Source: a virus | Length of the DNA stretch: 64,000 nt | Virus record (IMG/VR): IMGVR_UViG_3300048444_000173 | Span: 1 to 64,000 of that record | Reading direction: 5' to 3' (one strand) | Part shown: piece after piece, positions 7,742-61,886 of the stretch | Numbering within the stretch: the stretch's first letter is position 1 | Layout of the letters: the number at the start of each line of letters is the position of its first letter | Translations under genes and position numbers: made by a program | The notes under the pieces: generated by a model | Seen by the model: only the letters and a program-made list of their open reading frames with translations | Told to the model about the DNA's origin: nothing | Databases searched by the model: none

Positions 7742-8629
7742 ATGTTGAGTCAGGAAGAGTTGCGGGAATTATTTGAGTATGATGAGTCTAGTCCTAGTTG
7801 TTTGCGGTGGAAGGGTCACAAGGTCAAAAGTGTGAACGGCAGACCTGTAGGCTCTTGGTATCCTCGTTATAATAAGTTTATAGCAACAGTAGGTGGTAAG
7901 AAAATACCGCTAGAGTACCTGATGTACCAATTCAAATATGGTGGTATTGAAGATGGCGACACTTTGAGGACTTTGGGTGAACCATCAGACCTAAGAAAAG
8001 AAAACTTAATCTTATATAAAAAAGATTATATTGAGTATTGTTATAACGCTCGAATGAATATGGAGTGGTGGAATGTATTTGACATAAAGGATGGCAAGCT
8101 TTATTGGAAAATACCTAGCTTCGGAGGTAGGAGTAAGGGTAGCCATGTTCGTACAGATATTGGTGAGTCACTCAAATGGAGGTTAAACCAACACGGTTAC
8201 GTTGTTTGTAATATTAGAACCAGAAGTAAGAATCACCATTACTATCATAAAATTATGTGGGAAACTGCGAATGGTAGACCTACTGGTGACAATGAGGTTG
8301 ACCACATTGACAGGGATAAGTTAAATTGTGACCCATCTAACTTACGTTTAGCTACTAGGAATATTAATAGCAGGAACAGAAGCATGAGTGCCAACAACAC
8401 CTCTGGTGTAACTGGTGTTCATTATTCCAAAGATGACTTTTGGACTGCTAGGTATAATGACGCTGATGGTGTCAGGAGATGTAAAAAGTTTTCAGTGAAG
8501 CAGTACGGTTGGGATAAAGCGTTTGAAATGGCTTGCGAATATCGTAAAGAGAAGATAGAATACTTAAACGAAATATATGGTGATGAAGGTTATACAGAAA
8601 CACACGGTTTAAAATTGGAGGATAATTAA
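7742..8629 (+). CDS. HNH endonuclease with AP2-like DNA-binding end
   Basis: 295 residues. The central HNH_3-type core reads HHYYHKIMWETANGRP, then EVDHIDRDKLNCDPSNLRLAT, with the conserved D-H and N residues of the beta-beta-alpha metal site. The C-terminal part (SGVTGVHYSKDDFWTARY, then KKFSVKQYG) matches an AP2-like DNA-binding unit that often follows phage HNH cores. It stops as TAATG at the primase-helicase start, so it was inserted at the head of the replication operon. A free-standing homing endonuclease is the likely nature. Confidence 0.85.
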   Translation: MLSQEELRELFEYDESSPSCLRWKGHKVKSVNGRPVGSWYPRYNKFIATVGGKKIPLEYLMYQFKYGGIEDGDTLRTLGEPSDLRKENLILYKKDYIEYCYNARMNMEWWNVFDIKDGKLYWKIPSFGGRSKGSHVRTDIGESLKWRLNQHGYVVCNIRTRSKNHHYYHKIMWETANGRPTGDNEVDHIDRDKLNCDPSNLRLATRNINSRNRSMSANNTSGVTGVHYSKDDFWTARYNDADGVRRCKKFSVKQYGWDKAFEMACEYRKEKIEYLNEIYGDEGYTETHGLKLEDN

Positions 8630-10524
8630 TGACAGACGAATTAGAAGAAGGTGAATTGTTAGGGCATTATGCTTGCGTTGGTCATGGCGGTAGTGATTCG
8701 TTAGCACTGTACCAACATGAGGACGGAATAAGAGGTTATTGCTTTGCTGAATGTGGGGCAGTTTCAGCTAAGACATTGAAAAAGTGGGAAGTTACTGACG
8801 GTAAAGATGAAGTGTTAGTAGAACCAGCAATTATTACAAGTTCAAAAGGAGGCTCTTTTGTTATGACTGATGAAGTGTTAGCTAAAGTTAATAGTATTCT
8901 CGAAAAGGAAACACACGGTTGGCCTGAGCGCAGAATACCAGCTATTGTTAATGATTTTTATGGTGTTCGTTCAGACGTAGAAGGCTCAGGTAGGGATAAG
9001 GTTTTACTTAAAGAGTATTGTCCTTCTTACGACCAAAATGACGACCTAGTTGGTTGGCACGTTCGTGATGACAAATGCAAAAAAGCCCGAAACGAGGGAC
9101 AGAAAGATTTACCACAACCTTTTTACTCTATTGGTAAAGTTCGTGGTAGTTGTAAAATGTTTGGTCAAAATAAATTTGAGAAAGGTGGTAAGTATTTAGT
9201 TATTGCCTCTGGGCAAGCTGACGCTCGTGCTATCTTTACCGCCCTGAACACAGAGAATGACCATCAGACTAAGCGTACTGTATTAAAGAAATTCCTTACA
9301 CCTATCGTCAGCGTACAGACTGGTGAGGGTAGTATGTCACAGATTAAATCAAACTACGAGTGGATTAGTAGCTTTGAAAATGTAGTAATTATGTATGACC
9401 AAGATGACGCTGGGAAAGAGGGCGCTGAAAAACTAGCTAAGTTACTGAAGCCGGGGCAGGCTAAAATTGCTAAGTATAAGCGCAAAGACGCTTGTGACCA
9501 TTCCAAACGTGGTGAATGGGATGCTATTCGTCAAGCGTTTTGGAAAGCAGAGTCATTCAGTCCTATTGATATTTGCTCACTTGGTCAACTGTGGGATGAA
9601 TTTGAACACGCAGTTGAAGATGATATTATCGAGCTACCTAAAGAATACAGGACTCTTGGTGGAATGATGGGTGGTGGCTTTCGTGCAGGACAGATCACAA
9701 TGTTGTTAGCCTATACTAGCGTTGGGAAAAGTACCCACTTAAACCGTATTGCTTATGACGCTGCTATTCGACAAGGTAAGAAGGTGGGTTTAGTTTATTT
9801 GGAAAGTAGTCCTCGTGAATTAGTAGAAGGATTCTTAAGTATTCACTCCAAAACCAACTTGACTCATTTACGTAGAGAAGAAATGAATATGGGAATGCTA
9901 AAGAATCAATTTCAAGATATGATTGGTAAGGATGATAATATATTGTCCGTTAACCATCACGGTTCTTTCACAAGTGTTGACGATATGTTCAATAAAATCC
10001 GCTGGTTGATTAAAGCTATGGGTTCTCAACTTGTGCTGATAGATCCTCTGCAACAGGCGGTGCCGAATAACGAGAATCAGGTTGTTGAGGAATTTATGGA
10101 TAAATTGCTTAAATTGGTTAAAGAGACTGGTGCTCATATTATTGTTGTTTCTCATATGAAGAAACCTTCTGACACAAACCCTCATAATGTTGATGAATAT
10201 GGGTCAAAGGGTAGTAGTGCAATTAACCAAGTAGCGTTCAACTCAATCTTAATAAGCAGGGACAAGACACACGACAATGCTAAAGTCAGAAATGCTACTA
10301 AACTAACTTTAGTAAAGAACCGCACATTGGGTATTACTGGTGATGCAGGGTGGGTATCTTATAATCCAGATACAACTGAAATTAAAGAGGTTGCTAACCC
10401 GTATGATTCACTTGACGAACCAGATGAGACATTATTTGGTGGTGATGTAGACGTGGGCGAACAAGACTACGACAAAGTTGAAGAACAAGAATCTAGTCAA
10501 GATTGGGAGGTTGTTGATGAGTGA
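8629..10524 (+). CDS. Primase-helicase, T7 gp4-like
   Basis: 631 residues. Residues 15-45 hold a zinc-binding-like unit (CVGHGGSD, then GYCFAECG). The TOPRIM primase region has YLVIASGQADARAIF and VVIMYDQDDAGKEGAEKL. The C-terminal RecA/DnaB-type helicase has Walker A AYTSVGKST, then VGLVYLESS, Walker B QLVLIDPL and IIVVSHMKKP. It would synthesise primers and unwind DNA at the fork. The end overlaps the DNA polymerase gene by 8 nt, so the two replisome enzymes are translationally coupled. Confidence 0.9.
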   Translation: MTDELEEGELLGHYACVGHGGSDSLALYQHEDGIRGYCFAECGAVSAKTLKKWEVTDGKDEVLVEPAIITSSKGGSFVMTDEVLAKVNSILEKETHGWPERRIPAIVNDFYGVRSDVEGSGRDKVLLKEYCPSYDQNDDLVGWHVRDDKCKKARNEGQKDLPQPFYSIGKVRGSCKMFGQNKFEKGGKYLVIASGQADARAIFTALNTENDHQTKRTVLKKFLTPIVSVQTGEGSMSQIKSNYEWISSFENVVIMYDQDDAGKEGAEKLAKLLKPGQAKIAKYKRKDACDHSKRGEWDAIRQAFWKAESFSPIDICSLGQLWDEFEHAVEDDIIELPKEYRTLGGMMGGGFRAGQITMLLAYTSVGKSTHLNRIAYDAAIRQGKKVGLVYLESSPRELVEGFLSIHSKTNLTHLRREEMNMGMLKNQFQDMIGKDDNILSVNHHGSFTSVDDMFNKIRWLIKAMGSQLVLIDPLQQAVPNNENQVVEEFMDKLLKLVKETGAHIIVVSHMKKPSDTNPHNVDEYGSKGSSAINQVAFNSILISRDKTHDNAKVRNATKLTLVKNRTLGITGDAGWVSYNPDTTEIKEVANPYDSLDEPDETLFGGDVDVGEQDYDKVEEQESSQDWEVVDE

Positions 10525-12712
10525 TAAAGATTACTTAGACGTATGGGTTTGTGACGTAGAAACTTTTAAGGATTGCTTCACCCTAGTTGCGGCTAATGAA
10601 TCTAAGAAGAAAATGTATGTGTTCGAGATTTCGTCAAGGAAAGACGACTCTCAACGCTTGCGTAAATTCTTAGGACAACTTTATAAGAATAAGGAAACAC
10701 TTGTCGGGTTTAACTTTGTCGGATTCGATTACCCTGTTATTGTGCATTTCTTAGAGAATAAAGGTATAACTTGCACCGAGTTGCATGAGTTCGCTAATGA
10801 CATTATTGCGGCACAGAACAGCGAAGATGACAAGTTCAAATATCAAGTACCAAAGAATAAGCAGTGGATTCGCTGTGTCGATTTGTACTTAATTAATCAT
10901 TTCAACAATAAGGCTAGAGCTACTAGCTTGAAGATGATTGAATTTAATATGCGTAGTGAAATGATTGAGGATTTACCTTATAATCCGACTGACGATTTGA
11001 CAGAAGATCAGATCCAGAAAATCGTTGAGTATAACAAACACGACGTACTTGAAACGCTAAAGTTCTATAAAGAATGCTTAGGTGCAGTTAAGTTCCGTGA
11101 CGTCCTCTCTGAACAACTAGGAATGGACGTAACAAACTTTGACGACACTAAAATTGGTAAGCAGTTCTTTATTAATGAGCTTGAGAAGAATGACCCAGAA
11201 GCCTGTTATAAGAATGTAGGTGGACGTAAAATTAAACGTCAAACTAAGCGTGACAGTATTGATTTGAGTGAAACTATTTTGCCGTACATTAAGTTCAAGC
11301 GTCCAGAGTTTAAGGCTGTAAAGGAATGGGTGGCTAAGCAAGTTATTACAGAAACTAAGGGCGTGTTCACCGACATTGAAGAACATGAGCTTGGTGAACT
11401 TGCTAAATATGCTCACATGGAAACTAAGTCTAAGAAACTCAAGACTAAGGAAACTAAAGACCGTGATTTGTATAAGCAAGTTCGTAAGCGTATTCGTGAA
11501 GAAGATTTGGATGAGAGTGAGGTTGAACAACTTGAAGATTCAATTTACGGTGTACCAGATCAAGATGAAATTGACGAGTTATTAGAGTTGCACCCTAAAG
11601 GTTGGGTTGAGCGCACCCGCCTAAAGTCAGGCAAAACCAGCTTCAACTTTAACTGGCGTATAGCTCCGAACTTGAATACTGTCGTTGATGGTTTTGTATG
11701 GGATTTCGGCGTAGGTGGTGTGCATGGTGCTACTGCTGGTAAGAGTTATGTCAAAGATGAATCACAACGCATTATGTCATGGGACGTAACAAGTTATTAT
11801 CCGAACTTGTCTATCCGTAATCGGATTTACCCTGAACATTTGGGTGAGATGTTTTGTGACGTATATGAGGAACTGTTTGAGAGGCGTAAGAAATACCCTA
11901 AAGGTACACCTCAAAATCTTTCTCTGAAGTTGAGCTTGAACGCCTCTTACGGCGCGTCTAATGATAAATATTCAGTAATGTTTGATCCTAAATTTACGAT
12001 GAAGATTACACTTGCTGGACAATTATCACTTGCTATGCTTGGCGAATGGTTAGTTGAAGGTTGTGAAACTTTAAACATAATCATGGTGAATACGGACGGA
12101 CTTGAATTTACTGTCCACCCTGACGAAGTTGAGAAGTCCACACAAATATGCCAAGAGTGGGAAAAGGCAACTAAGTTACAACTCGAAGGTGAAGAATATG
12201 ACAAACTGTTCATAGCAAACGTGAACAACTACGTTGGTGTATTCACTGACGGTAAAGTTAAGCGTAAAGGTGCTTATGAATATGAAGGATTAGGTTGGCA
12301 TCAAAATCAAAGTGCATTAGTGATTAAACGTGCTGCTGTCTTAGAGATGACAGACGGAATCCCACTAGAGAAAACTATACGTGATTGTCGTGACCCTTAC
12401 GACTTTATGCTACGAACAAAAGTACCACGTAGTTCTCGCTTGGTATTGCGCTATCACGATTCTGACGGAGATTTAATGCGTGAAGAACAGCAACAAAATA
12501 TCACACGGTATTATATTGCTAATGATGGTGGTAGCTTGATTAAAGTTATGCCACCTTTACCTAAAGACCCTGAAAAGGAGCGTGAGATTGGTATTGATAA
12601 GGAATGGTTAGTGAAAACGTGCAATAACATGAAAAACTTTGACTGGGATATTAATTACGATTACTATATCAGTGAAGCTAAGAAGCTGGTGAATGCTGTG
12701 GGAGAGTTTTAA
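10517..12712 (+). CDS. DNA polymerase, family B
   Basis: 731 residues from the ATG at 10517, which overlaps the helicase end. The N-terminal 3'-5' exonuclease has WVCDVETF (Exo I Asp13/Glu15), LVGFNFVGFDYPVI (Exo II-like) and YNKHDVLETL (Exo III). The polymerase part has motif A SWDVTSYYPNL, motif B KLSLNASYGASND and motif C VNTDGLEF, with NTD in place of the more usual DTD. KVKRKGAYEY follows, as in the KKRY region. It is a proofreading replicative enzyme without recognisable protein-priming insertions. Confidence 0.9.
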   Translation: MSDKDYLDVWVCDVETFKDCFTLVAANESKKKMYVFEISSRKDDSQRLRKFLGQLYKNKETLVGFNFVGFDYPVIVHFLENKGITCTELHEFANDIIAAQNSEDDKFKYQVPKNKQWIRCVDLYLINHFNNKARATSLKMIEFNMRSEMIEDLPYNPTDDLTEDQIQKIVEYNKHDVLETLKFYKECLGAVKFRDVLSEQLGMDVTNFDDTKIGKQFFINELEKNDPEACYKNVGGRKIKRQTKRDSIDLSETILPYIKFKRPEFKAVKEWVAKQVITETKGVFTDIEEHELGELAKYAHMETKSKKLKTKETKDRDLYKQVRKRIREEDLDESEVEQLEDSIYGVPDQDEIDELLELHPKGWVERTRLKSGKTSFNFNWRIAPNLNTVVDGFVWDFGVGGVHGATAGKSYVKDESQRIMSWDVTSYYPNLSIRNRIYPEHLGEMFCDVYEELFERRKKYPKGTPQNLSLKLSLNASYGASNDKYSVMFDPKFTMKITLAGQLSLAMLGEWLVEGCETLNIIMVNTDGLEFTVHPDEVEKSTQICQEWEKATKLQLEGEEYDKLFIANVNNYVGVFTDGKVKRKGAYEYEGLGWHQNQSALVIKRAAVLEMTDGIPLEKTIRDCRDPYDFMLRTKVPRSSRLVLRYHDSDGDLMREEQQQNITRYYIANDGGSLIKVMPPLPKDPEKEREIGIDKEWLVKTCNNMKNFDWDINYDYYISEAKKLVNAVGEF

Positions 12713-19029: not shown

Positions 19030-20056
19030 TTATCCAGAATGGCTACCACAAGCTATTGAGCTATTAGATACAGGCATGAGTAAACGTGCTATTGCTCGTG
19101 AGCTAGATATTGGGCGTACATCCTGTCGTGAATGGTTGAGTAAGTTTGAGGATGGGTTGATTGGTGAGGTTCGTGTTGCCGAGCCTGTTGAGCCTAGAAT
19201 TGTAGAAGAAGTTACTGCAATCAATATCACCAAAGATGTTTACCCTATTGAAACGACAAAAGTGGTTGAACCTGACGTAACTCACTTAATGATACCTGAC
19301 ACGCAATGTAAACCAAATATTGACATGACTTATTTAGACGTGCTTGGGCAATATATTGTCGATAAGCAACCAGAGGTTATTGTTCATATTGGCGACCATG
19401 CTGATATGCCGTCCTTGTCCTCTTACGATAAAGGTAAACGTACTGCCGAAGGTAAACGAGTGCAGCATGATATTGAATCATCCATTGAGGGTATGAATCG
19501 TTTACTTAAACCCTTGCATGACTTACAACAGCAACAGTTAGAGCAATTTGGGCGAGTATTGTACAAGCCTAAGATGGTACTGACACTCGGTAATCACGAA
19601 CAGCGTATTGAACGTCACGTAGATGCTAACCCAGAGCTTCACGGTTTCTTATCTTACGATAGTTTACGCTATAAAGATATGGGGTGGGAGGTCTACGACT
19701 TCTTACAACCAGTAATCATAAATGGCGTGAGTTATGTGCATTACATGGCTAATCCTATGTCGGGCAAGCCATACGGCGGTCAGGCTATGAATGTGTTAAA
19801 GAATGTAGGCGAGTCATTCTGTATGGGACATAAGCAAACATTGGATATTGCCACACGTTTCTTACCCTCATCTGGCAAACAACAGTGGGCTATTATCGCT
19901 GGTGCATATTATGAGCATGAGGAAGCATATAAAGGTCATCAGGGTAATCACCATTGGCGTGGTATTGTTGTTAAGCACAATGTTCGTGACGGTACATTTA
20001 ACCCAATGTTTGTTAGCTTAGAATATTTGAAGAATCGTTATGGAAAAGAAATTTAA
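19019..20056 (+). CDS. HTH plus calcineurin-like metallophosphoesterase
   Basis: 345 residues. Residues 5-45 form a helix-turn-helix (AIELLDTGMSKRAIARELDIGRTSCREWL). The catalytic part has MIPDTQC, VHIGDHADMPS, LTLGNHEQRIERH and a late GHQGNHHWRG, the metal-binding blocks of the calcineurin-like superfamily. Phage relatives sit in replication operons and may act on DNA or nucleotides. The HTH-phosphoesterase fusion suggests DNA targeting. The end overlaps the next endonuclease-like gene by 17 nt. Confidence 0.75.
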   Translation: MLNNYPEWLPQAIELLDTGMSKRAIARELDIGRTSCREWLSKFEDGLIGEVRVAEPVEPRIVEEVTAINITKDVYPIETTKVVEPDVTHLMIPDTQCKPNIDMTYLDVLGQYIVDKQPEVIVHIGDHADMPSLSSYDKGKRTAEGKRVQHDIESSIEGMNRLLKPLHDLQQQQLEQFGRVLYKPKMVLTLGNHEQRIERHVDANPELHGFLSYDSLRYKDMGWEVYDFLQPVIINGVSYVHYMANPMSGKPYGGQAMNVLKNVGESFCMGHKQTLDIATRFLPSSGKQQWAIIAGAYYEHEEAYKGHQGNHHWRGIVVKHNVRDGTFNPMFVSLEYLKNRYGKEI

Positions 20057-20825
20057 TTACTTGAAGCGACTTAGGCATCACAATACAGACAAGCACGGAA
20101 GCTACTCTGTATATGAATGTTGTATTTGTGGTAATACAAAGACTATATGTGACTATAGCGTTAAGAGTGGCGCAACTAGGTCTTGTGGGTGCATGGCTAG
20201 ATTAATTCCAGTAAATGATTACACAGGTGAAATGGTCAATGGCGTCGAGATAATAGGTTACATTGGTAAATCTTTATGGCGTGTTAGGTTCTCCTGCGGT
20301 CACTATGGGGACGTCCAAATAGGCTTAGTTAAAAACAGGAAGAATCCAGAATGTAATCACTGCGTTAAAAGTAAGCTAGTAATCCAAAGAAACACCAAGC
20401 ATGGTTGTTGCAATAAAGGTAACTTAACTTATACATCTTGGCTATCAATGAGAAGGAGATGTTACGATAAGTCTAACAATAGGTATCAAGAATATGGAGC
20501 AAGGGGTATATCCGTATGTGAAGAATGGCGCAATGACTTTTCTAAATTCTTAGAGGATATGGGTGAGAGACCTAGTGTAAACTATTCTATTGACAGGATT
20601 GATACCAATGGTGACTACACACCAGAAAATTGCAAATGGTCTGATAGGGTAGAACAAGCAAATAACAAGCGCAATGTTAGGTTAATAACAAATGGCGCTG
20701 AGAGTAATAGTCTTATGTATTGGTGTAAACGACTCAACATTGACTACAAAAGGGCTTGGTATTTAACTAAAAATAAAGGTGTTGACATTAAAGAGGTGCT
20801 GGGTGAAAATTACAGATATGTTTAA
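20040..20825 (+). CDS. Endonuclease-like protein of the YGARGI/SIDRID family
   Basis: 261 residues. The N-terminal half has paired cysteines (CCICGNTK, RSCGC; CGHYG, CNHC) likely to bind zinc. The C-terminal half carries SWLSMRRRCYDKSNNRYQEY, GARGISVCEEW, SIDRIDTNGDYTPENCKW and EQANNKRN, a pattern common in free-standing phage genes annotated as HNH-like or homing endonucleases. It lies about 300 bp upstream of the intron-containing nrdA gene. Nuclease activity is not shown by a classic HNH signature, so the call is by family resemblance. Confidence 0.6.
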   Translation: MEKKFNYLKRLRHHNTDKHGSYSVYECCICGNTKTICDYSVKSGATRSCGCMARLIPVNDYTGEMVNGVEIIGYIGKSLWRVRFSCGHYGDVQIGLVKNRKNPECNHCVKSKLVIQRNTKHGCCNKGNLTYTSWLSMRRRCYDKSNNRYQEYGARGISVCEEWRNDFSKFLEDMGERPSVNYSIDRIDTNGDYTPENCKWSDRVEQANNKRNVRLITNGAESNSLMYWCKRLNIDYKRAWYLTKNKGVDIKEVLGENYRYV

Positions 20826-21116: not shown

Positions 21117-23623
21117 ATGATTGAAACCGTTGTAAAGCGAGATGGAACAGAAGAAGCGTTTGATGCAGGTAAGCTAAATAAGTGGGCGGAGTTTGCAACA
21201 GAACAAGGCGGCGACTGGTCGGAGATTGCACGACAAACCTTTAAGAAATTACCAGCTAAATGTACGAGCAAAGACATTCACCAGACGATGATTGACGTAT
21301 GCTTATCTAAACAAACTATTGAATACAGCCGTGTAGCTTCACGCTTAGAGCTTGCTGAGCTACGTAAAGCGATGAATTATTTACTTAACATCGACCCGTT
21401 TGATAATTCATTCAAAGACATTATGCAAACTTATGAGGACTTAAATATATGGGATAGTGGCGTTATGCCTGAATATAACCCAGAGTGGGAGAACTGGTAT
21501 AATGAATTGAAAGAATATCGTATGGAGTTTTGGCGTATAAAACAGTGGACGGATAAGTATTCACAGCAACTTGATGATAACCCTGTTGAGACTCCTGCAC
21601 TTGGTTATATGGGTATCGCTCTAGCGTTATTTGGCGACTCTGAGAAGGCTTATGAATTTGCTAAGGGTCTTACACTCGGTAAGATTAGTTTGCCTACTCC
21701 TGCTCTTAATGGTTTACGTAATGGTGATTGGGACACAATCTCTTGTTGTGTTATTTCAGCAGATGATACAACTGAAAGTATTGGTGTGGCTAATTGGATC
21801 GCATATCGTATGACAGCTAAAAAGGCTGGCATTGGTATTGAATATACAACTCGCTCTAAAGGAGATAACGTCAAAGGTGGTCGAGTCAAACACTTAGGTA
21901 AACACCCTATTTATAAATGCTTAGACCGTGAGGTTAAGGTACTGACTCAGATTACTCGTGGTGGTAATGCAACAGTTACGGCATTAGCTATCGACCCAGA
22001 AATTGAGGATATTATCTTATGGCGTTCACAGCGTAAAGACATCGAGACTCGTATTGATAAGTTGGATAATGAATTTGGTTATAATGATGCGTTTGTTGAT
22101 GCTGTTGTAGGTAATAAGGATTGGCACTTATTTAGTTATGGTGATGCGCCAGACGTTTACAAAGCATTTTATAAGGCTAACGTAGAGGACTATAACAAGG
22201 TTGTTGATGAGCATATTAAACGGGGAGTTAAGCACAAAACTGTTAAAGCTCGTGATTTACTTAAAACATTTTTAACTGTGCGTCAAGAAACTGGTCGATT
22301 TTATGACAACAACTTAACCCGAACTAATACGCATACGCCTTTTATTGATACAATTAAGCAAAGCAATCTGTAAAATAGTGCAGCCCTATTTAGGAATAGA
22401 TAGGTGAAGAATCCTGTGAATTGCTGGAAACCTAAACGTGTTATGACGTAGGCAATCAGCAGCTAAGCTTGGAACATAGTTCCTTGAAAGTTCAGAGGTC
22501 ATCTCGCAAGAGAGTAGGAGTCAAGTGATTCCGAAGCGCAGGACAACCAGAACGGTTGATGATATGATCCGACACCCGTTGAAAAGCGGGAGAGACGTAA
22601 CGAATCTCGTAACAGTGTGGCGAAGAAATTTGCTTACCAACAAAAGGTTATAAGTCAATGCAAGACCTTTATTCCCCAGAGAGTGAAGGTGAAACAGCAT
22701 TCTGTAGCTTGTCTGCTATCAACGTTGCTAACGTAGCCTTAGATGAGTACGAGCGTGTTGCAGAGCTAGTATTAGAAGCTGTAGATATTATGATTGATAA
22801 TGCCCCAATGATGACAGAATCAATGAAAGCGGATATTATGCGTAGGCGTAGTGTTGGAGTCGGTATCACTGGACTAGCAAGTGCTATGTATAGTAATGGT
22901 TACGATTATGATGGGAGTGACGAGTCCTTAGAGTTTGTGCAAAAAATAGCTGAACACCATTATTTCTATTTACTAAAAGCTAGTCAGAAATTATCTGAAC
23001 GTGATGGTTTTTGTGTAGAAGGTGTGAACTTAGATTGGCTACCAGTCGATACTGCTATAAGTAATTCTATAACAAATTTAGATTGGGAATCGTTGCGAGG
23101 GAAACCACGCAAGCACAGCGTACTTGTCGCTAATATGCCTACTGAGAGCAGTAGTCTTTTGAGTGGCAAAACCAATTCGTTGTACCCTGTGCGTAAGAAA
23201 GTCATCAATAAACGTAGTCGAAAAGGGCTGGTGCAATTCATTTGTCAGGAATTTGACCCAGATAAACATTTAAGTGCTTGGGATGTTGATAATATTACTT
23301 TATCCAAGTACTATTCACACATTCAGGATTTCACTGACCAAGCGATTAGTGCTGACTTCTACTTTAATCCTATGAAGTACGAGGATGAAAAAGCACCATT
23401 GTCAGTCCTGATGAAAGAGTGGGTTGCTCATGCTAAACTGGGTAACAAAACTAAGTATTACCTTAACACGAACGATGACAACGGTGGTTCTTTCCAAGAC
23501 CAGACCAAAAAATCTAAAGGGGTCGAGTCTTACCTTTCGCCAGAAAAACCAATTAAGGAGATCGTCAACGGTCTTGAGGTGGAAGCAGAAGAAGATGGTT
23601 GTCAGGGCGGTTGTAAATTATAA
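21117..23623 (+). CDS. nrdA: Ribonucleotide reductase large subunit, split by a group I intron
   Basis: Exon 1 is 21117-22371 and exon 2 is 22620-23623; joined they give 2,259 nt, 752 residues, in frame. Exon 1 starts with an ATP-cone-like region (VVKRDGTEEAFDAGKLNKW) and ends at IKQSNL. Splicing completes a Cys codon to read SNLCEEICLPT, so N417, C419 and E421 form the N-x-C-x-E radical site of class I enzymes. Partner Cys residues are in DTISCCVIS and GETAFCSLS, the radical-path YY in KYYLNTN, and a C-terminal CQGGC redox pair. Unspliced translation stops right after exon 1. nrdB follows 11 nt downstream. Confidence 0.92.
22372..22619 (+). other. Group I intron (248 nt, no ORF) in nrdA
   Basis: P1: exon CUGU pairs with intron GCAG, leaving U-G at the 5' splice site; the intron ends in G. 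Core pairings are visible: P3 UCCUGUG/CGCAGGA, P5 CCUA/UAGG, the P4 Q-strand AAUCAGCAGC, P6 arm GGAAC/GUUCC, P7 GGUCAU with AUGAUCC, extra P7.1/P7.2 hairpins (UCUC-GCAA-GAGA; GGAGUC..GAUUCC), P8 AACC/GGUU and P9 CCCG/CGGG. The P7.1/P7.2 insertions fit subgroup IA. No endonuclease is encoded inside. The insertion lies between bases 1 and 2 of the catalytic cysteine codon. Confidence 0.9.
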
Positions 23624-33582: not shown

Positions 33583-34322
33583 GTGAATACAGAAACTACG
33601 GCGATGACTTTATTATTGAGTCCAACAATTACGGTAAGCACGTATCAGCCATGACAGGTGAACAATTACATAGCAAGTCTGATATAGCCGCTGAATTGGC
33701 TTATCGTGATGACCGAATCGAGCAGTTGGAGCGTGAGAATGAATTAGCAACCAAAGAAGCCTTGTTAATGGTTCAAGCTATGCACAAAGACTTCTACTCG
33801 GATTCCGATGGTGCAGAGTTATTTGAGCCATTAGATACCACCTCTGGCTTACTTACTCAAATTGACAATATGTACGCAGGTATTCGTAACCGTTGCCGTG
33901 AGTTGGAGCGGGATAATCGGGAATTAGCTGATAAAAACTCCATCCTGTGGAATAGGTATAACGAAGCCAGTACAGTCACAGGAAAAGAATGGGGGTTAAC
34001 AAAAGAAAACCAAGCGCTAGCGGCGCATGTTGAACGTTTAATTAAAGCGTGTGAATTAGCCCGTGATAACTACGGTAAAATGCTATTGACTGACCCGCCG
34101 CAAGAAGCGTGGAAAGCAAATCAAGTGACCACAAAGTTGGTTGATGCAATAGCTTCAACGCCCCGAACCAGCCTAGCCGAGCGTGATGCGGAAGTTGCTA
34201 ATAAAGCATTATTGAAGCTGGCAGAATACATGGAAGAAGGTTTTGGTGTGCCAGTGACTATGGGTTGTGATGAGGTTAGAGATTACGCCGCCAAAATCCG
34301 CAACGAAGGTTCTGACCAATAA
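33579..34322 (+). CDS. Coiled-coil protein, 247 residues
   Basis: Long heptad regions (residues 35-65 and 100-150). A C-terminal helix set reads [20 protein letters not shown]. Similar polyproteins of variable coiled coil are common in phage accessory regions. Function unknown. Confidence 0.6.
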
Positions 34323-34401
34323 CTTCCCCACCCACCTATCCTCAGTATTCGCCCTAGATGCTGGGGACAATTCCCTCCCTAAAAATATTCCAACAATTAA
34401 T

Positions 34402-34430
34402 TTGACAATGATTCGGACGAGTGATATTGT
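34402..34430 (+). promoter_or_regulatory. sigma70 promoter of the helicase operon
   Basis: Perfect TTGACA (34402-34407), 17 bp, TATTGT (34425-34430), 32 bp before the helicase start. Confidence 0.75.
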
Positions 34431-34461
34431 TGCTGAAAGTTTTAAATTAGGAGACTATAAT

Positions 34462-35703
34462 ATGGACAAACAACAACAAGCCCTAGACGCTATTCATAAT
34501 GGAGAGAACATATTTCTCACTGGTGTAGGTGGTACAGGTAAGAGTTATGTCATTAATCAAATTAAAGATGATTCTACCATTATCTGTGCGCCAACAGGAA
34601 TTGCAGCACTAAATGTGGGCGGCATCACTTGTCATAAAGCCTTTGGATTGCCAACAGAGGTAGCGACTAAACATCATCGATCTATACATGGTAACAAGAA
34701 CGAACAGTTTAGAGAATTATTCTCTGGTAATATTGTTAAACGTATTGTTATTGATGAAATATCTATGTTGCGCCTAGATTATTTCGAACTAATTGACCAT
34801 AAACTACGTGCAGTGAGAAATAATGACCTACCCTTTGGTGGAATACAGATGGTAGTGGTAGGAGATTTCTTCCAATTAGAGCCTATAGTGAGCGTTAAGC
34901 ACAAGAAATTCTATTATATGCTATATCCTAGCGCCTTTTGCTTTAATAGCTCTAGCTGGAGCTTTAAGACCATAGAACTGGACAAGGTATATCGCCAAGA
35001 GGACGCTAATCAAGTTGCTATGTTGTCTTGTGTACGTAAAGCAGATAAACACGCTAAGTTAGCCTTAGACACAATTCAGAAACGTGCTGACATTTATAGA
35101 AACTCACCACTTACCTTAGAGTTATTTTGTTATAATGCTGGAGCAGATAAGGTTAATAAGCAGTGGTATGATGAGCTAAGCACAAGGGAATACACATATT
35201 TTGGTAGTAAACGTGGTAAGTGGAGTCCTAGTGAATTACCTGTACCAGAAGAATTACGTATGAAGTCTGGCGCAAGAATTATGCTATGTGCTAATGACTT
35301 AGAAGGGCAATATGTGAATGGTGATAGAGGCTTTATCAAGCAACTTAGCTATACAGGTATTGTCGTAGAGTTAGATGACGGCAGAATGGTCAATGTCCAA
35401 CCTTACACTTGGAAGAAGATTGATTATGAAAAGGTGGAGGGGGAGTTAGTACGTAATACTGACAATGAATATACACAGTTTCCTATCAAACTAGCATGGG
35501 CAATATCCATTCATAAATCACAAGGTATGACATTAGATAAGGTTGCTCTTAATGTTGGCAGAGGTTGTTTTGCACATGGTCAATTATACGTAGCCCTTAG
35601 TCGAGTTAAGGACTTGAATAAACTACAATTAGCAGAGCCATTAGTTTATAATCGTGATTTAATTGTCAAACAAGAGGTAAAGGAGTTTTATGAAAAAGAT
35701 TAA
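34462..35703 (+). CDS. Pif1/RecD/Dda-like SF1B helicase
   Basis: 413 residues from ATG 34462 (GGAGACTATAAT upstream). Superfamily 1B motifs appear in order: Walker [23 protein letters not shown] (Ia), IVIDEISML (II), [11 protein letters not shown] (III), ELDKVYRQ (IV), and a C-terminal [17 protein letters not shown] (V) and LYVALSRVK (VI). Such 5'-3' helicases (T4 Dda, RecD2, Pif1) act in replication initiation and fork rescue. It heads a three-gene operon that ends at the repeat tract at 36.6 kb. Confidence 0.9.
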
Positions 35704-59260: not shown

Positions 59261-59480
59261 TATCTTCATCCTCTTTAGCTTTGTCCTTAGATTCACTCTC
59301 TAAATATGACCGAACTAGCTGTGCATACATTAGCATAGCTTCTTCGTCCGAAAGGAATAGTTTGATAGCACCTGACATAATGTGCATAGCACGATCATCG
59401 CCAGCATTATTCTCTACAACAGTTTTGATGTTGTCATCGTCTTGCTTAGTAATTTTGATAATGATTTCTGAATTGCTCAT
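59250..59480 (-). CDS. Small protein, 76 residues
   Basis: Begins MSNSEIIIKITKQDDDNIKT; helical middle; very acidic end (KDKAKEDEDNAE). Overlaps the sigma gene by 35 nt, so co-translated. Possible paralogue of the 58259 product. Function unknown. Confidence 0.6.
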   Translation of the reverse strand: MSNSEIIIKITKQDDDNIKTVVENNAGDDRAMHIMSGAIKLFLSDEEAMLMYAQLVRSYLESESKDKAKEDEDNAE

Positions 59481-60111
59481 TAAATTGCTCCGTTACTTGT
59501 TTGTCAATCTTGCGTCCAACTTTCGATGAAATAGTTTTTACAGTCCAGTAGCTTAACCCTAATGTTTCAGCCGCTTCCTTTAGGCTAGTATCATGTGCAT
59601 CACGAGAGTAGTAGATGAGTTGCTCTCGTTCAGGATATTGTCCGACTACTTGTTCTTCAATGCTAAGGTACATATCCGCCACTTCTGCTACGTCAATGCT
59701 CTGGAATGCGTCTGTTAAATCTTCTACCTGTGATTCATTAAAAGAGAACTCTTGTTCATGGCTATGTTCAGCAATACTGTAAAATAGAAAATGGAAATCA
59801 TCCTTGTCTTGGTCTGTGATATAATTCGGCTTACGATAACGAAATTGGTTAATGTATCTTGTCCGAACAATCGTGTAGAGATATGTTGTGAATGATGCCT
59901 TAAACTCAAATGATTGCTTAATGTATCGTGCTGCTGTTGACCAAACCTCTTGTGTAATATCGTCTATCTCTTCTTTGTCATGCTTTACGAGCTTATTTAG
60001 CCTTGCCTTAACCATTGGGTTGTAGCGTTTGTACAAAGCTGTAAAGGCGTGTTCATCTCCGTCTTTGTATGCTTGACAAAGCTCATTGGCTGTCATTTTG
60101 GTGTAATTCAT
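59446..60111 (-). CDS. Phage-encoded ECF-like sigma factor
   Basis: About 221 residues. Region 2 is clear: ELCQAYKDGDEHAFTALYKR, then DDITQEVWSTAARYI, then FTTYLYTIVRTRYINQFRYR. A linker of about 75 residues follows. Region 4 has REQLIYYSRDAHDTSLKEAA and ETLGLSYWTVKTISSKVGRK, with a helix-turn-helix. This is a two-domain ECF/group 4 layout. It probably redirects host RNA polymerase to a phage promoter class. ATG 60111 is chosen; 60096 or 60123 are alternatives. It is transcribed away from the polymerase-like gene at 60385. Confidence 0.8.
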   Translation of the reverse strand: MNYTKMTANELCQAYKDGDEHAFTALYKRYNPMVKARLNKLVKHDKEEIDDITQEVWSTAARYIKQSFEFKASFTTYLYTIVRTRYINQFRYRKPNYITDQDKDDFHFLFYSIAEHSHEQEFSFNESQVEDLTDAFQSIDVAEVADMYLSIEEQVVGQYPEREQLIYYSRDAHDTSLKEAAETLGLSYWTVKTISSKVGRKIDKQVTEQFNEQFRNHYQNY

Positions 60112-60126
60112 TTCATATATCATCCC

Positions 60127-60155
60127 GTTATAATTGGCTATGCTTACTATGACAA
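60127..60155 (-). promoter_or_regulatory. sigma70-like promoter of the sigma factor operon
   Basis: TTGTCA (60155-60150), 17 bp, TATAAC (60132-60127). The expected start near 60120 leaves almost no leader before ATG 60111. Confidence 0.6.
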
Positions 60156-60244
60156 TTTGGAATAAATATAGTTCAAAATTAGTAGTGTTATAATGTAACA
60201 AAATAGGGGTCATTTTCGAAATGCTCTAGCCCATGTGTGGCGTA

Positions 60245-60335: not shown

Positions 60336-60384
60336 ACAGATATTATGTAATAGATTATGTCATAGACATTAGGAGTAAATAGTT

Positions 60385-61638
60385 ATGTCAGTAGAGTTAA
60401 TAATGGATAGTAGAGTACACAAGGATAGTGATTACCTAGTTAATCTTATCTATGATTCTGTCATAGGTTCTTTCAAGAATACTAGGACAAGAACAAGTAA
60501 GTCAAAAGTAAAGGGTTGTCTACAGTGTATTGTTAAAACATTACTCTACATGGACAAGGAAGGATACGGTTATGCTTCTGTTAGCCTAGATGAGTCTGAC
60601 TACACTGGTAAAGCAAAGATAAATGGTGAGGACAAAGATATTCTACCATCGTATTCTTACATGATTGACTTACTTCCACTCCTGCATGAGTTAAAATGGA
60701 TTAAGTATAAGAAACATGACCAACTAGATTATGCCGAATACTCTGCCAGAATTATGAACCATGGGTTTGACATAATTCCGTTAAAGGTTACTGACAGATG
60801 TTCTACCATTAGGCGAGGTAAGCGTTGGAAGCAACAACGTAAACGTAAGAAACATGTAAAAGATATTAAGCCAACATTATCGGTTATAGAAATTAGGGAC
60901 ATGAATAAGAACTTATTACCAGTACCAGATACAGAGGAGACAAGACAGTTGAAGAAAGATATGTTTGCATTAAATGACTGGATGAACAGTAACAAGGTTG
61001 TGCATCAAGGTGAACGCCTGTTTATTTGGCTTAAGCGTATCTACCAAATGGACTTTGAACAAGGTGGTCGATACTACTCTGAAAAAGGTACTGTGCAAAG
61101 CATTCCTAAGCAAGAACGATTCAATATTACTATTGCAGGTGAATCCATAAGTGAATTGGACTATGTTTCATGCCAATACCGAATCCTTGCTGATTTCAAT
61201 GCGGTAAATTTGGAACAAGGTTTTGACCCATACTTCATTCCAGAGCTTCCTCAAGTGAGCAGGAGTATGCTTAAAAAGTGTAGCGTTGTGATGCTTAACA
61301 CAAGTGGAAGAAAGTCTGCCTATGGTGCTGTCAGGAATGAATTAAAGCATTTAGGCGTAAAACCTAAGCAAGTATTTGACGCGCTAATTGATCACAACTG
61401 GTATGTTAAAGATTATGCGTTCAAACAAGTAGGAATGAAACTGCAAAAGATAGAGTCAGAGATATGTGGCATGGTGTTGGATATTTGTATGCGTGATAAT
61501 GTACCTGTGTTCCCTATCCACGACAGCTTCTTATGTCGAGCTAAGGACAAGGAATTATTGCATGAAATTATGTTGCAATCTTGGCGTAATGTGTTAGGAT
61601 TGAACATGAACTGTAAGATTAAGGAGGAAACACTATGA
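60385..61638 (+). CDS. Protein with a polymerase-like palm (PolA/single-subunit RNAP superfamily pattern)
   Basis: 417 residues. Three blocks match the palm of family A DNA polymerases and single-subunit RNA polymerases: motif A ISELDYVSCQYRILAD (D259), motif B RSMLKKCSVVMLNTSGRKSA (K297/K298), motif C VPVFPIHDSFLC (H379-D380). Before motif A, GGRYYSEKGTVQSIPKQERF resembles a conserved GRxY...IP..R block of polymerase-like proteins on plasmids and prophages. There is no exonuclease domain, and residues 1-200 are unlike known polymerases. Role (primase, accessory polymerase or RNA polymerase) is open. Confidence 0.65.
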   Translation: MSVELIMDSRVHKDSDYLVNLIYDSVIGSFKNTRTRTSKSKVKGCLQCIVKTLLYMDKEGYGYASVSLDESDYTGKAKINGEDKDILPSYSYMIDLLPLLHELKWIKYKKHDQLDYAEYSARIMNHGFDIIPLKVTDRCSTIRRGKRWKQQRKRKKHVKDIKPTLSVIEIRDMNKNLLPVPDTEETRQLKKDMFALNDWMNSNKVVHQGERLFIWLKRIYQMDFEQGGRYYSEKGTVQSIPKQERFNITIAGESISELDYVSCQYRILADFNAVNLEQGFDPYFIPELPQVSRSMLKKCSVVMLNTSGRKSAYGAVRNELKHLGVKPKQVFDALIDHNWYVKDYAFKQVGMKLQKIESEICGMVLDICMRDNVPVFPIHDSFLCRAKDKELLHEIMLQSWRNVLGLNMNCKIKEETL

Positions 61639-61886
61639 TTGACTTTACTGGTTACGACATGGACTTAATCATTGATCGGTATCAGTGTGCTGGAGAACAA
61701 CTAGACCGTGTTGAAGAAGCATGTGGTGATGAAGGAAAGATGTATGATCTTGCCTGTGAATTGGCTTGGGCAGAAGAATTGTTGTTTCAGCTTGAGATGG
61801 AGCTTATTGACGAAAAGGGTTATGAGCAAGACAGAGAATACCATACAATTAAGCAAGCATATGGTGATGTTATTATTAAGAAATGA
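61635..61886 (+). CDS. Acidic small protein, 83 residues
   Basis: GGAGGAAACACT precedes the ATG, which overlaps the polymerase-like stop. Helical and acidic (LDRVEEACGDEGKMYDLACE). Not recognised. Confidence 0.6.
   Translation: MIDFTGYDMDLIIDRYQCAGEQLDRVEEACGDEGKMYDLACELAWAEELLFQLEMELIDEKGYEQDREYHTIKQAYGDVIIKK

Follow-up and report, generated by a model that had tools for sequence, protein, structure and literature searches.

An outlying divPolA2-family polymerase encoded besides a phage family B replicase, and its kinship with integrase-linked polymerases of bacteria

Introduction

Why would a phage that encodes both a primase-helicase and a family B DNA polymerase carry a second, short polymerase gene? 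The question is raised by the last part of the window, by which we mean the whole stretch of DNA analyzed here; it makes up the initial 64 kb of a virus record of 82,362 bases. The first-pass annotation, made from the sequence alone, had described there a palm protein of the PolA/T7-RNAP type lacking an exonuclease and any known N-terminal domain, and had offered a primase, a gap-filling enzyme, or a compact RNA polymerase as its possible identity. Here, we follow this protein from its gene and predicted fold to its relatives in phages and bacteria, and weigh the roles that it could play.

Gene and Genomic Setting

The genes considered are the following (position in the window, strand, description).

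8629-10524, plus strand: primase-helicase of the phage (phrog_239, E 6.4e-122)
10478-12712, plus strand: family B DNA polymerase (PolB), the presumed replicase (phrog_1252, E 1.2e-176)
34267-35703, plus strand: Dda-like SF1B helicase (phrog_325, E 1e-72)
59446-60213, minus strand: phage sigma-70-family factor, divergent neighbor of the divPolA2 gene (PF04542, E 3e-10; phrog_1740)
60371-60375, plus strand: AGGAG in the sequence, ribosome-binding site about 10 nt 5′ of the polymerase ATG
60385-61638, plus strand: divPolA2-family polymerase gene, 417 aa (ORF, phrog_4756 match, AlphaFold model, A-family matches)
61635-61886, plus strand: next ORF in the sequence, 83 aa, its ATG overlapping the polymerase stop (ATGA)

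The polymerase ORF runs from an ATG to a TGA in the ORF list and its translation, exactly as first annotated, and is now joined by a ribosome-binding site and a family match, while on the opposite strand stop codons close the register that was read. The family B replicase reported elsewhere in the window is likewise confirmed. The divPolA2 gene lies between the terminase and sigma factor genes on one side and a PhoH-like gene on the other, and among the neighbors searched no D5-like helicase, integrase, resolvase, or transposase was recognized beside it. A search near the gene for repeats indicative of an origin, the edge of an insertion, or a binding site returned short imperfect matches only, and promoter-like sites were fewer there than in shuffled sequence. 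The GC skew of the window changes sign at about 40000 and 60200, in line with gene direction, and the second change coincides with the divergent sigma/divPolA2 pair.

The closest relative found by PolB is Nitrincola phage 1M3-16 (52.6% identity), whose genome has largely the same gene order as the window record, read in the opposite direction, from the primase-helicase and PolB through the terminase, PhoH-like, portal, capsid, and tail genes. In this phage, three profiles found no divPolA2 at E<=1, which indicates that divPolA2 is an accessory gene at a variable spot and not the replicase of the lineage. A sigma factor is present in 1M3-16 as well, at the equivalent position by the terminase side. 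The two phages can also be compared at the ribonucleotide reductase large subunit, which occupies two ORFs in the window (21117-22373 and 22658-23623), just 3′ of an HNH endonuclease gene (20040-20825), and a single ORF at the corresponding place of 1M3-16; the split perhaps reflects an intron, a frameshift, or a natural division of the gene.

Family Membership

Residues 23-415 of the window protein match positions 36-439 of the 440-position phrog_4756 profile (E 1.2e-60), and tblastn with the protein matched 288 phage records, with 80% or more of the query covered in 168; a chance reading frame can therefore be dismissed. The relatives, at about 20-31% identity, come from phages of Vibrio, Rheinheimera, Aeromonas, Pseudoalteromonas, Shewanella, Klebsiella, and other hosts, and the direct matches include a barbavirus protein and AUR84708 of Vibrio phage 1.063.O (locus L019). 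Proteins of this kind were named divPolA2 in the 2024 report "DNA polymerase swapping in Caudoviricetes" (Virol J; PMC11348598), which described them in barbaviruses and Vibrio phages as a divergent A-family polymerase carried besides the regular polymerase, with a globular N-terminal domain for which no similarity could be detected, and possibly acting as a repair DNA polymerase or an RNA polymerase. PHROG 4756 is thus the published divPolA2 family, a membership that lay beyond what the first reading of the sequence could see, and since its kin are the proteins named in that report, the window protein is by sequence a new, outlying member.

Full-length agreement with the profile, an A-family palm with both catalytic aspartates, a separate N-terminal domain, the lack of an exonuclease, and a co-encoded regular polymerase (PolB) all characterize the window protein. 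Like the published divPolA2, it is accessory to that polymerase and has a palm without the Pol I thumb. It differs from the others in its outlying position (branch length 2.15, which is long, and at most 27% identity to any row of the tree), and in belonging to a phage related by PolB to 1M3-16, itself without the gene. Many aquatic phages possess divPolA2, a pared-down relative of DNA polymerase I, in addition to their main polymerase. The neighborhoods of divPolA2 are variable, a single phage may carry up to three paralogs, and in two Vibrio phages homing endonucleases lie immediately 3′ of the gene. The main text of the Barba phage transcriptome paper does not name the divPolA2 gene.

The window protein gave no significant polymerase match in Pfam or NCBIfam and no match in a single-sequence PDB search, the family gave none in Pfam, and the family profile matched only a Pol I in the PDB (E 0.019). 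A search of the record with PF00476 (DNA_pol_A) was negative, while 10 of 14 genomes were positive in the control; PF00940, for the T7-like RNAP family, matched neither the record nor its control and thus carries no weight. The full set of members was too diverse in alignment for scanning the collection, and scans with subfamilies were used instead.

Predicted Fold and N-Terminal Domain

An AlphaFold2 model of the window protein, built with 20 viral relatives as input, reached a mean pLDDT of 85 and a pTM of 0.83. The matches listed by Foldseek were all A-family DNA polymerases (best E 5e-7), and in VIA-align, apicoplast Pol (Z 14.5) and yeast mitochondrial RNA polymerase (Z 14.4) scored alike, with mostly residues 165-417 aligned at 10-16% identity by structure. 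Two regions are distinguished.

60385-60900, plus strand: N-terminal domain, aa 1-172, common to the bacterial homologs (predicted secondary structure, profile alignment from residue 13, alignment)
60874-61638, plus strand: palm and fingers, aa 164-417 (Z of about 14 against apicoplast Pol and against mitochondrial RNAP in VIA-align)

The structure prediction and fold search that had been proposed as a check thus return an A-family palm, and with profile homology and residue conservation pointing the same way, the identification as a PolA/T7-RNAP-type palm protein stands. Because DNA and RNA polymerases are matched alike, the fold backs a palm polymerase and makes no choice between DNA and RNA synthesis. 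Profile alignment to Pol I or T7 RNAP was too weak to use, so that this kinship is shown by the fold alone.

Neither Pfam nor the model contains a nuclease domain, in agreement with the first reading, and the absence of a known N-terminal domain holds at the sequence level in Pfam, NCBIfam, and PDB searches. The N-terminal domain is predicted to consist of helix 39-59, strands within 64-84, helix 90-102, and strands 106-108 and 130-135, and a helix-then-strand pattern is conserved in the alignment across the family. On this order of elements and this pattern, the domain is probably winged-helix-like and would bind DNA. Pfam and PDB sequence searches gave it no consistent match; KorB appeared for two members (best E 0.037) and DpnI_C for one (E 0.074), and neither was counted.

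Active Site

The residues expected of an A-family enzyme are found at these places.

61117-61119, plus strand: R245, invariant Arg after a hairpin, the template or active-site Arg of the TV-Pol description (alignment)
61153-61182, plus strand: motif A, ELDYVSCQYR, with catalytic D259 and with Q264 at the sugar-gate position (alignment, sequence)
61225-61233, plus strand: conserved D281-P-Y283, Y283 being invariant (alignment)
61261-61299, plus strand: motif B-like O-helix, R293xxxK297xxxV301xxxN305 (alignment, sequence)
61513-61536, plus strand: motif C, PIHDSFLC, with catalytic D380 (alignment, sequence)

R245, D259, Y283, R293, K297, and D380 are invariant in 21 viral rows and nearly so in 68 bacterial ones; over both sets together, R293 is nearly invariant and the other five residues fully so. 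Motifs A and C are as first described, whereas motif B is canonical only in part, its Arg and Lys being kept and V301 and N305 departing from it.

The window protein shares a palm/fingers fold, motifs A and C, and the O-helix Arg and Lys with DNA polymerase I and T7-like RNA polymerase, with the exonuclease and thumb of Pol I absent from it. Its residues were compared with those of E. coli PolA and T7 RNAP, each translated from its genome. At the gate, five residues after the motif A Asp, PolA has Glu, T7 RNAP has Gly, and the window protein has Gln264; nearly all other members have His, Glu, or Trp. Such a bulky gate may favor dNTPs, judging from the sequence. In the O-helix, V301 and N305 stand in place of F762 and Y766 of Pol I and of Met and Tyr in T7 RNAP, the Asn in place of the usual Tyr being invariant, so that RxxxKxxxVxxxN matches neither enzyme. 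Motif C reads HDS, the same as in T7 RNAP. The window protein thus has neither the Gly gate and Tyr at the Y639 position of T7-like RNAPs (Q264 and N305 instead), nor the PF00476 match, Glu gate, and O-helix Phe and Tyr of Pol I (Q264, V301, and N305).

Bacterial Homologs and TV-Pol

With a divPolA2 from Aeromonas phage phiA019 as the query, matches were obtained to proteins encoded on replicons of Thioclava (E 4e-9) and Paracoccus (E 2e-8), and a search with the Thioclava protein in turn returned 284 phage records from the same genera as divPolA2. A genome scan found 79 bacterial loci, mostly in Rhodobacterales and SAR116 and including Paracoccus denitrificans, Roseovarius, Loktanella, and Sulfitobacter, and an HMM built from phage divPolA2 alone matched 81 of 81 bacterial loci (E 6e-18 to 4e-65). 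Profile-profile alignment of the phage and bacterial sets covers residues 13-414 (probability 100, E 7e-58), showing that the N-terminal domain is common to both. Tyrosine integrases recur near the bacterial genes, one family at 35 loci and another at 10, suggesting integrating islands. On these sequence comparisons, divPolA2 can be placed within a polymerase family of bacterial integrating elements, as its branch in phages.

In a tree with long branches and unknown rooting, a supported branch (SH-aLRT 99) separates the 68 bacterial rows from the rest, and two metagenomic viral sequences sit between them and the other phage rows. These sequences, on IMG/VR contigs (L033:3464-4696 and L034:3455-4681), carry a GGRLYGMGSIGWQN motif and are viral intermediates between phage divPolA2 and the bacterial island polymerases; they may show a route of transfer.

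Iyer, Abhiman and Aravind (2008; PMC2579912) described TV-Pol by a hairpin Arg, two Asp, and a fingers Asp with RxxxK, by the absence of a nuclease, by an extra N-terminal domain in some members, and by linkage to integrases. The window protein resembles this description in R245, D259, D380, D281, and R293/K297, in its additional N-terminal domain, and in having no fused nuclease, and the bacterial homologs resemble it in their integrase linkage, several of their genera coinciding with the 2008 list. In contrast to TV-Pol, no D5-like helicase was recognized fused to the window gene or among those of its neighbors that were searched, and gp030 of cyanophage Ma-LMM01, which lies beside transposases and is presumed to be a TV-Pol, matches divPolA2 weakly. 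Compared by the 2008 description, the bacterial family is thus probably TV-Pol, and we stop short of counting the window protein among the proven ones. The 2024 report names TV-Pol once, in its background section (PMC11348598).

CcPol-MP of SCCmec, a dNTP-using A-family primase (PMC7581432), was placed in TV-Pol by Iyer (PMC2579912), and CcPol and related A-family polymerase-SSB pairs are proposed TV-Pols (PMC7581432; PMC10061031). Both CcPol-MP and divPolA2 are short polymerases of the A family that mobile DNA encodes in addition to the normal replisome. However, CcPol shares E174 and F225, a Glu gate and an O-helix Phe, with Pol I for dNTP selection (PMC7581432) where the window protein has Q264 and V301, and it possesses part of an exonuclease and an OB-fold partner, neither of which was recognized in the window protein or its locus.

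Two Exchangeable Versions in Vibrio Phage ICP1

Each of the 82 ICP1-type records carries exactly one of two deeply diverged divPolA2 versions at a single locus. In 43 records it is the long version, of 494 to 555 residues according to which start codon is used, and in 39 the short one (434 residues). No record has both, and none of the 53 genomes in the series MW794140-MW794192 is without a version. In a comparison of two isolates (L004:6819-9247 versus L006:6525-9783), identity is about 98.6% in the near flank on either side, and the segment between the flanks is unrelated at the DNA level except for 50 bases; the long and short proteins share 28% identity over their last 240 residues. Exchanges of this sort, "functionally redundant alleles" among them, are treated in general terms in a review of ICP1 (PMC9040626). 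That one copy is kept in every genome suggests a real, interchangeable function. The version of the accessory helicase was considered as a partner of the polymerase version and rejected, since helA was found with both; helicase and polymerase loci are thus not strictly paired.

Possible Roles of divPolA2

The role that we favor, tentatively and at somewhat less than an even chance, is an accessory one, as a primase-polymerase or a DNA polymerase for gap filling, with the N-terminal domain binding DNA. Accessory DNA synthesis is preferred because the palm and fingers are confidently modeled with the catalytic residues kept, the gate is bulky and not Gly, and homology to the integrase-linked bacterial polymerases runs over the full length; an accessory place, because PolB and a primase-helicase are present, 1M3-16 does without the gene, and all 82 ICP1-type records retain it. 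The dNTP-primase option gains from analogy, CcPol-MP being the closest tested relative in kind. Against this role, the modeled fold matches RNA polymerases equally well, the dNTP-selecting residues of CcPol and Pol I (E710 and F762 in the latter) are not kept in the sequence, the winged-helix reading lacks a significant library match, and a presumed primase is already encoded, so that a second one needs a reason.

A compact single-subunit RNA polymerase, transcribing a subset of phage genes from promoters recognized by the N-terminal domain, was also offered by the 2024 authors (PMC11348598), and would agree with a Z score to mitochondrial RNAP as high as that to Pol I, with the HDS of motif C, and with the position of divPolA2 at the head of a divergent operon beside a sigma factor. 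However, a bulky residue replaces the Gly at the gate and Asn the Tyr of T7 RNAP Y639, the adjoining sigma factor of the phage points to use of the host RNAP, the homologs reside on integrating bacterial elements and not in transcription modules, and no promoter-binding domain of the T7-RNAP type was recognized. These points, together with the absence from 1M3-16, make transcription unlikely in our judgment, and of the three options first offered (primase, gap filling, or RNA polymerase) the evidence leans toward accessory DNA synthesis.

Within DNA synthesis, a plain repair or gap-filling polymerase devoid of priming ability, as proposed by the 2024 authors (PMC11348598), is a less probable alternative, though one to be taken seriously. 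The accessory distribution, with absence from the collinear 1M3-16, and the lack of an exonuclease would suit it, whereas conservation of the N-terminal domain from phages to bacterial elements exceeds the needs of a plain extender, and repair genes do not consistently adjoin divPolA2. We think it quite improbable that divPolA2 is above all a selfish gene riding along in phage genomes, with a polymerase serving its own spread: the variable neighborhoods, the paralogs, the homing endonucleases 3′ of the gene in two Vibrio phages, the bacterial kin on integrating islands, and the empty spot in 1M3-16 all speak for mobility, but the retention of exactly one version at one locus in 82 of 82 ICP1-type records, including 53 of 53 in the isolate series, argues against it, as does the finding of neither a transposase or integrase gene nor clear flanking repeats next to the window gene.

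In the favored accessory role, divPolA2 would be a catalytically competent, template-directed A-family polymerase made of palm, fingers, and an N-terminal domain standing in for thumb and exonuclease. This domain would grip a particular DNA site or a single-strand/double-strand junction, where the palm would start or extend a short strand with dNTPs, acting as a primase-polymerase or in gap filling, and the primase-helicase and PolB of the phage replisome would then take over that strand. Secondary origins, recombination-dependent replication, and damage are possible settings. A bolder version, which we hold to be rather unlikely, is a site-directed initiator-primase, in which the winged-helix-like domain would recognize a phage site and the palm would lay down the first primer.

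Implications

If the initiator-primase version were true, one protein of 420 residues would combine an origin-recognition protein with a primase and constitute a primase class distinct from DnaG and AEP, with kin among the polymerases of integrating elements. It would now be diversifying in the conflict between phages and satellites, a possibility hinted at by the ICP1 locus, where the two versions exclude each other. The invariant O-helix Asn in place of Tyr could also shed light on the discrimination between rNTPs and dNTPs by A-family enzymes. The family as described in 2024 had no function, no kin beyond phages, and an N-terminal domain whose kin were unplaced; kinship with integrase-linked bacterial polymerases, N-terminal domain included, gives the family a wider circle of relatives and a testable role in accessory priming or DNA synthesis. 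As ICP1 is well studied and its locus exists in two versions, deletion and version exchange there could reveal the job of this enzyme.
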